DNA of 64,000 nt from Bradyrhizobiaceae bacterium (GTDB taxonomy: Bacteria > Pseudomonadota > Alphaproteobacteria > Rhizobiales > Xanthobacteraceae), in contig RXJC01000250.1 of the NCBI GenBank assembly GCA_003963435.1, forward strand, positions 1 to 64,000, in the 5' to 3' direction. Of the stretch, positions 2-11,219 are shown piece by piece. A program made the position numbers and the translations under genes. The notes below the pieces were generated by a model. It saw only the letters and a list, made by a program, of their open reading frames with translations. It had not been told where the DNA came from and made no database searches. Numbering within the stretch: position 1 is the first letter of the stretch; every line of letters starts with the position of its first letter.

Positions 2-211
2 ATCCGACATGGCGGCGACAAGGCATTTTTCGCGCCGGCGCTCGATCTCATCCAGATGCCGCCATTCGAGAGCTTCCGTGACGCGGAGAGCTACGCCGCC
101 ACGCTCGCGCACGAATGCGTGCATTGGACTGCGCCGGCGCACCGCGTCAATCGCGACCTCAGCCGTTACGCCAAAGATCGGAGCGAGCGTGCCCGCGAAG
201 AGCTGGTCGCC
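2..211 (+). pseudogene. ardC: ArdC-type antirestriction protein, internal fragment (piece 1 of a split ardC; open at window edge)
   Basis: Frame 2 reads IRHGGDKAFFAPALDLIQMPPFESFRDAESYAATLAHECVHWTAPAHRVNRDLSRYAKDRSERAREELVA; HECVH zincin motif; stops matching at 211 where an inverted repeat begins. Confidence 0.85.
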
Positions 212-453
212 TTATCTTGACAGTCTGCACCGACTCTCAGCGTCTTGCTTACGTCGATGCAACAGGACTGACGGAGGCGGTAGGTCTTGTCCCCACGTGT
301 GGTGAGCTCGGTGGAGCAAAGCCGTCCGCACGCGCGCCATCCAATAGCGCCGTAGCGGGCGGACGGCTTTGCGGTGCTCACCGCCGGCCGTAGCGTTCCC
401 ACATAGCTGGCGACGGCCGGCCTGGATAGCGCCGGGCAAGTTGAACTCCTTCG

Positions 454-1896
454 TTGATGCTGGCTCCCCGGATGGGGGTCCGGGGGAAGGTTGAACAACT
501 TGTGGACAACGTAGCGCCGGCTTTGAACATCACCATTCAAGAGCGCCGATCGGCTGACGGCCTTGATGCACACGTCCCTATGATCCTGCGGGACGGGGCA
601 CTCTACGATCCTGATCTGGATCGCTTCTTCCGCGACCTTCCCCTCAACGGCGTCCGCTCACGGCACTCCCTTCGTGCGTATGGCTATGACGTCCTGGTCT
701 GGGTCCGCTTTCTTTCGGAAGCCTGCGGCAAGTCCGTATGGCAAGGTGATCGTCGCGACGTCCTTGCCTATCATCGCGTTCGTCGCCGGACGGAGGCCGG
801 CCAACGTATCTCCGCGGCGTCCTGGAATCGAGCTGTTGCCTGTCTCGATCGGCTCTATCGTTGGGGCGTTCACGAAGGCTTGCTCCCTGAAGCACCGTTC
901 ACGCACCGCTCGGTTTGGAGGCAAGGATACGGCGGTCGGCGTGCGCAGATTACAGCCCGCAATGACGCCTATGAGCCGGCTGCACGTCGAGCAGATGTCA
1001 GCTTTGTCACGCTCGATGACTACCGGGTATTTCGGGACGTCGGCCTCAGAGGGCTTATGCCTGATGGCGGAGCGCGGCCGGGAGCGCGTGATCGCAACGG
1101 CATTCGCAATGCGTTGTTTTCCGACATCGTTGTGACGACGGGCCTTCGGCTGGAGGAAGCCTCCTTTCTGTTTGCATCCGACCTTGCTGCCGTGGATCGG
1201 CGAACAGCTCGACAGGTATGGCTCGATCTACCGGACGCGCTGACGAAGGGCGATCGTGGTCGCCAGATTCTTCTTTCCGGTCGACTGCTTGAACAGGCGC
1301 GGGCCTACATCGCGGTTGAACGAGCTCACGCCGTCACTAAGTTCCGACAACGCTCCGGCTGGCGCTCGTACGAACGCCCGATCTTCGTTCACAGGGAGCG
1401 GTCAGCTTCCCGGTTGCGACTACTCGACGGGAGTGACGTCGTTCTTGATCTGCTGAGCCCCGAAGAGCGCAGCAGGATCATCGTCTGTGATGATGACGGT
1501 ACACCGGGCGAGCCCGCCGTGCTGTGGCTCACGGAAGTCGGATTGCCAGTTCAACCGAACTCCTGGGAGGTGATCTTCGCCCGGGCATCCGAGCGGTGCA
1601 GGTCTCTCAGCTTTTCCGTCAACATCACGCCGCACCAGCTCCGCCATACCTTTGCCGTGCATATGCTCGCGATGCTGATCCAGCAGCGGATTCGAGATGC
1701 AGCGTTGCCCGCTGGCCCGATCGAAGGATATCGGCAGATCCTCGGCGATCCACTCCAGCAAGTGCAACGGCTGCTTGGCCACGCCAGCCTTGCAACGACC
1801 TACATCTATCTCGATCACATCGCTTCGCGCGCCGATACCGTTGATGCAGCCGTCGAGGAGTTACTGGCGCTGCTTCCCTCGGAGCACTCGTTATGA
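454..1896 (+). CDS. Tyrosine recombinase/integrase, first of trio (GinA-like)
   Basis: 480 aa; box I TTGLRLEEASF, box II HQLRHTFAVHML, LLGHASLATTYIYLDH. Confidence 0.85.
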   Translation: MMLAPRMGVRGKVEQLVDNVAPALNITIQERRSADGLDAHVPMILRDGALYDPDLDRFFRDLPLNGVRSRHSLRAYGYDVLVWVRFLSEACGKSVWQGDRRDVLAYHRVRRRTEAGQRISAASWNRAVACLDRLYRWGVHEGLLPEAPFTHRSVWRQGYGGRRAQITARNDAYEPAARRADVSFVTLDDYRVFRDVGLRGLMPDGGARPGARDRNGIRNALFSDIVVTTGLRLEEASFLFASDLAAVDRRTARQVWLDLPDALTKGDRGRQILLSGRLLEQARAYIAVERAHAVTKFRQRSGWRSYERPIFVHRERSASRLRLLDGSDVVLDLLSPEERSRIIVCDDDGTPGEPAVLWLTEVGLPVQPNSWEVIFARASERCRSLSFSVNITPHQLRHTFAVHMLAMLIQQRIRDAALPAGPIEGYRQILGDPLQQVQRLLGHASLATTYIYLDHIASRADTVDAAVEELLALLPSEHSL

Positions 1897-3677
1897 GAGG
1901 CCGGCCGCGGAAGGGAACTTCAGTTCGTTTTGCGCCCGCAGATGGTGTTGTTCCAGCTCATGCCGGTGACCAGTTGCTCGGACTGCGCTTCAACATTGAG
2001 GCGCGTCATGGCGGGATCGTCGAGGTCGATCTCACCAGCCTGAGCCCGCGAGCACTTGCGATAGCCTTTGCCGGTGCTGTTCGCCGACAGGCTGAACTCG
2101 GCGGGGCGTTGGGAGCGCGCTGCACCATCATGCAGCACATTACGGCATATCGTAAGTTTTTCGCATACCTGCGAGCCCATTCTCATGCCACGAAGCCGGC
2201 TGATCTTCGCGCGCAGGATATTGACGGATTCGAAGCCTCCCTTGAGGCCGGCGGCATGACGCCGATCCATCGGCACACGGTCCTCGCGAAGGCGATTCTG
2301 GCGCTGCGCTCTATCGATGCCGATCAACCCGGCCTTCTCGACGATAAGCTCCGCCATCGCCTGAGCTACACCAGCGCGCAATCCGCAGGACGGTCGCAAC
2401 CCCGCGACGCATATAGTCCGTTCGTCGCTCGTCAGCTACGTGACGCGGCTCGCGCCGATATCGGCAAAATATTCCGACGTATCGGCCGCCCGCTCGACGA
2501 AGCCATTGATTCCAACCTCCGCAGCGCAGTCGCCGATGTTGAAGCCAGGATTGCCGCTGAAGGCAAGATCGAGCACTCGGACCTCGCCTTCAAACGCCTG
2601 TACTTCATGCGCCTGCGACGGGGCCTGCCGGTTTCGAGCTTTTCCGAAGATGTCCATAACCGCCATCATTTGCTCGCAACCGATCTGCCGCCACTGCTGA
2701 CGTTCCTGTCATTAGAGACAGGGCTCGAGATCGAATGCTGCAAGGCGCTGACCATCGATTGTTTGCAGAGTCCAGAGTCCGGGACGATCGAGATCCGCTA
2801 CATAAAGCGTCGCGCGCGTGGTGCCGAGCAGAAGCGTCTGCGAGTTCGTGATGGCGGCCTCGGTACGCCTGGCGGATTGATCCGCAAGCTGATCGAGGTG
2901 ACTAGCTTTACCAGGCGCTTTCTTCCGGTCGAGTCTCTCTGGGTCTATCATTATAAAGGGCGAGGACAGCTCCGGTCCGGCATCGATCACCCGCATCAGT
3001 TGGTGGACAACTGGGTCGCTGGACACGGCATCGTCGACGACGATCGCCGTCCGCTACACCTTGTTCTCTCCCGGCTGCGCAAAACACATAAGGCACTCTG
3101 GTATCTCAAGACCGAAGGGCACATGGCGCGCTTTGCCGTCGGCCACACGCCGGAGATCGCCGCTCGTCACTATGCGGATATTCCGTCACTGCGCCCTTTG
3201 CATGAAGCCACCGTCGCCGAGGCGCTCACGGAAGTTGTCGCGTCCGCAGGACCGATCGTTCTGTCACCCGACAGCGAGTCCCTTTGGCGCGAGGGTGCTG
3301 ACGCCCCTGTGCAGATCAATAACATTCCCGCGCTCCTGGATGGAGATCAGGACGTCTGGCTCGCGGCGTGCGCGGGCTTTCAGAATAGCCCCTTCGCCGA
3401 AGCAGGCTCACCCTGTCCGCAGCCATTCTGGGGTTGCCTGGAATGCCGCAACGCGGTCATCACGGCTCGCAAGCTGCCAGCGATCCTCGCGTTTCTCGAC
3501 TTTATCGAGGGCGAGCGCGCCGGGCTCTCTGCGGCCGACTGGAGCATCAAGTTCGGTCGCGCGCATGCACGCATCACACAACAGATTCTGCCCGTCTTCT
3601 CTGAACGTTTGATCGCCCAAGCGCGCAGCGAGGCCACCCAACAATCTCTCTATCTTCCGCCCGAGGTGCGGCCATGA
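1893..3677 (+). CDS. Tyrosine recombinase-like protein, second of trio (GinB-like)
   Basis: 594 aa; ATGA overlap with upstream gene; VGHTPEIAARHYADI C-terminal box; Cys-rich tail CPQPFWGCLECRNAV. Confidence 0.75.
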   Translation: MRGRPRKGTSVRFAPADGVVPAHAGDQLLGLRFNIEARHGGIVEVDLTSLSPRALAIAFAGAVRRQAELGGALGARCTIMQHITAYRKFFAYLRAHSHATKPADLRAQDIDGFEASLEAGGMTPIHRHTVLAKAILALRSIDADQPGLLDDKLRHRLSYTSAQSAGRSQPRDAYSPFVARQLRDAARADIGKIFRRIGRPLDEAIDSNLRSAVADVEARIAAEGKIEHSDLAFKRLYFMRLRRGLPVSSFSEDVHNRHHLLATDLPPLLTFLSLETGLEIECCKALTIDCLQSPESGTIEIRYIKRRARGAEQKRLRVRDGGLGTPGGLIRKLIEVTSFTRRFLPVESLWVYHYKGRGQLRSGIDHPHQLVDNWVAGHGIVDDDRRPLHLVLSRLRKTHKALWYLKTEGHMARFAVGHTPEIAARHYADIPSLRPLHEATVAEALTEVVASAGPIVLSPDSESLWREGADAPVQINNIPALLDGDQDVWLAACAGFQNSPFAEAGSPCPQPFWGCLECRNAVITARKLPAILAFLDFIEGERAGLSAADWSIKFGRAHARITQQILPVFSERLIAQARSEATQQSLYLPPEVRP

Positions 3678-10961: not shown

Positions 10962-11077
10962 TGGTTCCTCTGCTTGTCAAAACGACAGCAAAGGTCCGGC
11001 AGAAAATAATGCTGAGCAAATCCCGTCCGCAAAAGCTGATTTCTGCGGTTTTCAGGCGGTGCAGCCGCTTTCCTTCT

Positions 11078-11101
11078 CATTATGGGCTGCTGCGGATAAC
11101 T
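11078..11101. repeat. RIT right inverted repeat
   Basis: cattatgggctgctgcggataact; exact reverse complement of 7278-7301. Confidence 0.9.
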
Positions 11102-11219
11102 GCAGGTCCTGCAGGGCGACAAGCGAGCGGTTTTCCAGGCCGCCGCACATGCGCAGCGCGCCGCCGCGTTTCTGCACGGTCTCCAGCCGGCTGAGACCGC
11201 AGAGCGGGAGGCAGCGTGA
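11100..11219 (+). pseudogene. ardC: ArdC C-terminal fragment (piece 3 of split ardC)
   Basis: LQVLQGDKRAVFQAAAHAQRAAAFLHGLQPAETAEREAA*; continues ..SYVESWL of piece 2. Confidence 0.85.

Follow-up and report, generated by a model that had tools for sequence, protein, structure and literature searches.

We analysed a stretch of 64,000 nucleotides (hereafter the window) from a Bradyrhizobiaceae metagenome-assembled genome (MAG; assembly GCA_003963435.1, contig RXJC01000250.1, here C447), in which the antirestriction gene ardC is split into three pieces by two elements. Element 1 (206-7157) comprises three large tyrosine-recombinase-type genes and an intact ardC, and element 2 (7251-11102) is a recombinase in trio (RIT) element of ~3.8 kb (Table 1). 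Since base 1 of the MAG contig is also the first base of the window and lies inside ardC, the 5' half of the gene (residues 1-169, with Nitrobacter hamburgensis ArdC as the reference query for all ArdC statements) lies beyond the contig edge. A matching 5' piece was not found elsewhere in the assembly; genomes of the MAG's genus are mostly 7-10 Mb. An earlier reading of the window (the original prediction) held that positions 2-211, 7158-7250 and 11100-11219 join into one ArdC frame. The frame is indeed single and continuous; a plain join of 7250 to 11100, however, gives SWLL and not the expected SWL, because the CTG at 7248-7250 and 11100-11102 is a short direct repeat. The spliced product of 139 aa gave full-length, single, gapless alignments to intact ArdCs (81% to ArdC of N. 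hamburgensis plasmid 2, 87% to that of Ancylobacter pC), and DNA alignment with uninterrupted ardC genes displayed both empty sites. Piece 1 matched residues 170-239 of N. hamburgensis ArdC at 97% identity. We also considered, and rejected, that an ancestral piece of ardC lies here without any connection to the element, since intact ArdCs align across both junctions. The two elements were, as had been proposed, of different kinds, one a trio of 480, 594 and 721 aa and the other a RIT of 411, 454 and 344 aa.

Conserved residues of element 1's recombinase genes were assigned from the family alignment. TrA retained R232, H394, R397, H443 and Y452; TrB lacked the first catalytic Arg, with ETGLE in its place; and TrC carried R383, R511/R514, H537 and Y546. 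Neither TrB nor TrC had any match to Pfam, NCBIfam or PHROG models, and profile comparison showed neither to be significantly similar to TrA. AlphaFold models of both were of low confidence (predicted local distance difference test scores of 65 for TrB and 60 for TrC), and a search of solved folds with the TrB model alone returned weak matches to Cre, Tn1549 Int and lambda Int. We therefore refer to TrB and TrC as recombinase-like, based on their motifs plus the weak TrB fold match. A search of Rfam returned no matches. The original prediction left unmentioned the intact ardC that element 1 itself carries at 6190-7095, whose product contains HEAAH and reads EEATAE in place of EELVAE. That this internal ardC belongs to the host locus was rejected, since it lies within a 6,948-bp block common to the window and a second locus, L007.

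Table 1. Features of the interrupted ardC locus, with positions in the window.
Feature	Position	Strand	Basis or remarks
Host ardC piece 1	2..211	+	Residues 170-239 (N. hamburgensis numbering); contains HExxH and E-E
6-bp overlap/coupling sequence GTCGCC, left copy	206..211	+	V-A codons
Element 1 left terminal inverted repeat	212..226	+	TTATCTTGACAGTCT
trA, tyrosine recombinase, 480 aa	454..1896	+	Pfam Phage_integrase and SAM-like N-domain
trB, tyrosine-recombinase-like, 594 aa	1893..3677	+	Alignment motifs, weak fold match
trC, large recombinase-like protein, 721 aa	3674..5839	+	Alignment
Element-borne intact ardC	6190..7095	+	Pfam ArdcN and MPTase-PolyVal
Element 1 right terminal inverted repeat	7137..7151	+	AGACTGTCAGGATAT
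6-bp GTCGCC, right copy, host side	7152..7157	+
Host ardC piece 2	7158..7250	+	EIGSALMCADLGIVPELEPRPDHASYVESWL; 69-73% to N. hamburgensis ArdC 238-272
20-bp sub-palindromic box	7254..7273		TTATGACGAGGTGAGCATAA; flanks CTGACC (7248-7253) and TTCGAG (7274-7279)
RIT inverted repeat, ritC side	7278..7313		36 nt, 94%
ritC, tyrosine recombinase, 344 aa	7364..8398	-
ritB, tyrosine recombinase, 454 aa	8365..9729	-
ritA, tyrosine recombinase, 411 aa	9726..10961	-
RIT inverted repeat, ritA side	11066..11101		36 nt, 94%
Host ardC piece 3, through stop codon	11100..11219	+	6-bp target CTGCAG at 11100-11105

Scanning contigs of genomes as well as plasmids, we recovered 85 relatives of element 1, which occupy plasmids and chromosomes of many Alphaproteobacteria, and left junctions were counted where the left flank was at least 15 nt (n = 55). 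Sequence comparison showed the element to be specific in both target and orientation. All 55 left junctions fell at one ardC codon, after GAR-GAR-(L/I)-(V/I)-A; 52 were exact to the letter (E-E-[L/I]-[V/I]-A), two were shifted by one base and one had EEC. The relatives were always co-directional with the interrupted ardC, and right junctions resumed with the next ArdC codons, RTN-GCN-GAR. The interrupted ArdCs were themselves highly diverse (mean identity 46%, minimum 28%), and within the landing core codon positions 1 and 2 were near-invariant while wobble positions varied freely. The 6-bp repeats were identical in 14 of 49 cases, the remainder differing mainly at wobble bases. Since the left copy encoded V/I-A in all cases in correct register while the right copy tracked the local ArdC variant (RAEIAS, TAELTG, CAEIGS), the pattern suggests that it is the left copy that the element takes along when it moves. 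The proposal that ardC is a preferred landing pad is thus upheld, and more strongly than it was made; the preference is the elements' own, however, and not a property of "this backbone".

Comparison between genomes also showed element 1 to be mobile. Window positions 206-7153 were identical to a block in L007, a Beijerinckiaceae MAG contig (6,948 bp, zero mismatches), where the copy interrupts a different ardC; identity ended at the element ends and the flanking ardCs differed. A Nitrobacter MAG contig matched element 1 at 100% over 6,816 bp. In at least nine genomes a whole contig consisted of exactly one element, the usual sign of a collapsed multi-copy repeat.

The original prediction named, as a finding that would refute it, the same trio unconnected to ardC in close relatives; among relatives with at least 60% TrC identity and a readable junction, none lay away from ardC. 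The first exception was L102, a 59% relative with the same terminus, inserted in another gene with an EEL-x-AE core; its empty site (EELRAEM) contained all ten invariant core bases, and it carried no ardC. Three plasmid-borne relatives at 43-47% (L103, L104, L105) had other insertion places, and in two of these, L104 and L105, trC is immediately followed by a fourth, small gene. A minimal relative, L024 (5.7 kb), consisted of three genes with nothing more before the right end. The window's genome has another ardC (contig C1, reverse strand, ~657-12730) that is likewise interrupted at this codon; the trio element responsible is 47% identical and carries an ardC of its own along with additional cargo. 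Such a trio also used the codon in a congener (L122). Two further loci were observed. On contig C586 (75067-75966), the same genome holds an intact, unoccupied ardC whose EELVAE landing site is perfect and whose product is 44% identical to N. hamburgensis ArdC. In L006 (635-5378, minus strand), a more distant trio (TrC 26%) lies directly upstream of an element 1 trio, beside an ardC fragment.

An ardC was carried by 76 element 1 loci. The element-borne genes were stop-free and their products kept HExxH as well as E228 and E229, the window's copy also having ArdcN and MPTase-PolyVal domains. Median pairwise ratios of nonsynonymous to synonymous substitution (dN/dS) were 0.22 for element-borne ardC and 0.18 for trC; the element-borne ArdCs are under purifying selection. 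They grouped as one clade, separate from the targets (tree support 0.997), and the sole target within this clade was L023, the only element 1 insertion seen nested in an element-type ardC, whose site was EEI and not EEA or EEC. To compare landing sites, we used 84 free-standing ArdCs taken from viral contigs and sampled genomes. At least one invariant core nucleotide was altered in 54 of 67 element-borne ArdCs (EEATAE, EEACAE, EECCVE) and in 16 of 22 after 95% dereplication, versus 0 of 84 free-standing and 1 of 44 target ArdCs. Indeed, all free-standing ArdCs read EEL and matched at all ten invariant core nucleotides. Fisher's test gave P = 6.5e-29 with related lineages counted; since the lineages are related, the safer statement is that at least three independent landing-site changes occurred on the tree. 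The site used by the RIT (S-W-L) was unaltered in element-borne ArdCs, and RITs were inserted there in L044, L047, L048 and L080. As other cargo, L003 carries oxidoreductase genes.

Element 2 belongs to the RIT elements described by Van Houdt et al. (2012; PMC3414803), in which insertions in transposase genes and radC were noted. Its ritA, ritB and ritC are adjacent with short overlaps, all three products carry the catalytic set with R/H-R/H/Y motifs (invariant R260, K285, H354, R357, H380 and Y389), and its size and terminal inverted repeats agree with those of RITs (~3.5 kb, ~30 bp), homologous copies sharing the same ends. The subfamily at ardC Y-x-x-S-W^L (^ marks the insertion point) comprised the window, L001, L002, L005, L044, L047, L048, L080 and L099. 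In L005 (Paracoccus) the ardC is otherwise uninterrupted. Double insertion of element 1 and a RIT into one ardC recurred in S. herbicidovorans (L001), Sphingobium YC-XJ3 (L002) and Sphingobium sp. DEHP117 (L044, L047, L048, L080). Nesting was seen at the four DEHP117 loci: trio 1 and a RIT interrupt the host ardC, and a further RIT interrupts, at the same codon, the ardC that the element carries. In L099 (Sphingomonas MEA3-1 pMEA01), a RIT lies between two ardC 3' ends that are in inverted orientation, probably through recombination between two ardC::RIT copies. Related RITs (67-74% RitB identity) occupied IS110 transposase genes at YVKPFVK^RQKND (L092-L096, L098, L100, L101), and on the tree those targeting ardC and those targeting IS110 formed largely separate groups. 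A different RIT, of a third family with ends CATAATGCCG...GATTATGCCG, was inserted at the HExxH codons of ardC in 8 of 8 copies examined (L016, L045, L052, plus L123-L127), the five further copies coming from Jiella, Acidiphilium, Agrobacterium (two) and Bradyrhizobium. Viral contigs yielded no RIT relatives, and among 296 sampled genomes of the class (E <= 1e-40) the RIT query itself was the only match.

RIT copies carry a 20-bp sub-palindromic box, either of the TTATGCTCACCTCGTCATAA type or else TTATGCCGATATCGGCATAA, with a 6-bp spacer on each side (window 7254-7279, L005, L044, L092-L098, L101, L045, L124-L126). The box is mostly one-sided, on the ritA side in some copies and on the ritC side in others, which suggests a circular form IR-N6-box-N6-IR (IR, inverted repeat) with two alternative crossover points. 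Two crossover points are a possible reason for the presence of three recombinases in RITs. Neither the codon-level targets (ardC S-W^L, ardC HExxH and IS110 YVKPFVK^RQKND) nor the one-sided box with its spacers was described in the literature consulted.

Judged by eye, the open reading frames downstream of the host ardC (11634-12747) resemble a regulator of the MarR type and a DoxX-like membrane protein; the flank is thus not obviously plasmid backbone. By eye too, the minus-strand frames at 13139-13621 and 13618-13920 look like a toxin with a PIN domain and an antitoxin of the Phd/YefM type.

In R388 ArdC, the metal ligands are H201, H205 and E229, E228 orients H205, and Y255 has been proposed to stabilise the substrate (PMC7213743). 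Placed by homology on this protein, the insertions fall at HExx^H, at E228-E229-L-x-A^ and at Y255-x-x-S-W^L; judged from these alignments, three element families exploit three conserved blocks of one metalloprotease active site. We infer that selection has favoured sites that mutation cannot remove, within a gene disseminated by conjugation. The explanation that we hold to be probable is that two site-specific elements home to the least mutable codons of ardC, and that element 1 brings with it a replacement ardC resistant to integration. The tyrosine recombinases of each element would recognise their own short DNA motif, encoding residues of the metalloprotease centre of ArdC that are nearly invariant. 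Element 1 would insert through a 6-bp overlap just past the E228-E229 codons, reading GAR GAR NTN NNN GCN GAR NTN with wobble positions ignored, and the RIT would insert at the Y-x-x-S-W^L codons. Since such codons could barely change without loss of catalytic residues, nearly any ardC would offer a site, and since ardC travels on conjugative plasmids, targeting it would spread the element. A circular form of element 1 would cross over at the 6 bp within AGACTGTCAGGATAT-N6-TTATCTTGACAGTCT. Element 1 breaks the resident ardC and supplies its own, presumably functional, from a dedicated lineage with the landing codons usually changed; the carried copy would replace the lost antirestriction function and resist re-insertion. 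The wider statement, that this is a natural "break-and-replace" selfish element with a replacement recoded at the landing site, and that two RIT families have independently settled on other active-site blocks, is one that we favour by a modest degree.

Several observations weigh against this explanation. Seven element 1 loci with a known right end carry no ardC, and rescue is therefore not obligatory. A matching site is retained in 13 of 67 element-borne ArdCs (EEIC, EELT, EELV) and the target L011 has EEC, so that any resistance would be partial. Antirestriction by R388 ArdC is independent of E229 (PMC7213743). The ten-base core occurred 15 times in the MAG's own 7.3-Mb genome, with no excess over a reversed control; the core is therefore insufficient, and wider recognition or another factor is needed for the exclusive use of ardC. 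Furthermore, the junction and site counts are not phylogenetically independent.

One alternative is less probable in our view but retains appreciable weight. In it, ardC is accurately targeted while the carried ardC is ordinary antirestriction cargo, and EEATAE/EECCVE is a trait of the paralog that contributes neither to self-immunity nor to rescue. The motif could be ancestral, as the element-borne ArdCs are one separate clade, and both the seven elements without ardC and the other cargo of L003 fit this account. The altered residues, however, fall exactly on the landing codons and vary among sublineages (A-T, A-C, C-C-V, I-C), whereas the site is kept in every one of the 84 free-standing ArdCs and the RIT's S-W-L site is unaltered in the same proteins, where it is RIT-occupied in four loci. 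Moreover, L102, which targets another gene, carries no ardC. Spread of the arrangement by homologous recombination between element-carrying ardCs, instead of site-specific insertion, appears very unlikely. The element-borne and host ardCs have limited similarity that could support it, and the ardC 3' ends flanking the RIT of L099 do look like the outcome of inter-copy recombination; yet window-L007 identity halts at the element ends between differing ardCs, and precise termini with 6-bp repeats occur in ardCs about 28-84% alike. We rejected, as having almost no probability, the idea that two promiscuous elements entered a dispensable accessory gene by chance, with 95 bp between them. Broken plasmid genes do tolerate more insertions, but the identical codon was used in 55 of 55 relatives and the double insertion recurs.

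The use of codons for invariant residues, tolerance of wobble changes and a resistant replacement function are familiar from homing introns, inteins and synthetic "cleave-and-rescue" designs. The present elements differ from these in that they use tyrosine recombinases and a whole separate replacement gene, with no self-splicing. GInts make 6-nt staggered cuts bounded by imperfect repeats, their GinC lacks the first Arg (Bardaji et al., 2017; PMC5385486), and unrelated GInts target one gene, ssb (PMC5385486). Element 1 is like them in beginning, at its 5' end, with an operon of three integrase-type genes, of which one product lacks the first catalytic Arg, and in its site-specific insertion with imperfect direct repeats and a 6-nt overlap. 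It differs in lacking a ginD-like fourth gene, which is essential in GInts (trC is followed by ardC or, in L024, by nothing), in having terminal inverted repeats, in inserting within active-site codons of ardC and not at a gene end, and in usually carrying a homologue of its target. Its relatives L104 and L105 do have a small fourth gene, with other targets. Since ginD is absent, element 1 was not classed as a GInt, the likeness observed being one of organisation and overlap. With SE elements and Tn554 (PMC10214605), element 1 shares the 6-bp footprint, target specificity and the pairing of large with ordinary tyrosine recombinases; here, however, there is no Srap or TnpC counterpart, and target and gene order are different. 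In the literature searched, ardC was not described as a site of such elements, nor was any element reported to carry its target gene in a form changed at the landing site; an earlier mention is possible.

With motifs, empty sites and termini defined, targeting by three-recombinase elements is now directly testable. The findings suggest that, as a general rule, elements of this sort target unchangeable codons in genes carried by plasmids (ardC and the IS110 transposase here; ssb and radC elsewhere), and element 1 would be a natural counterpart of engineered rescue drives. The findings also imply that many genes annotated as "truncated ArdC" on alphaproteobacterial plasmids are insertion sites, which bears on the ability of those plasmids to evade restriction.

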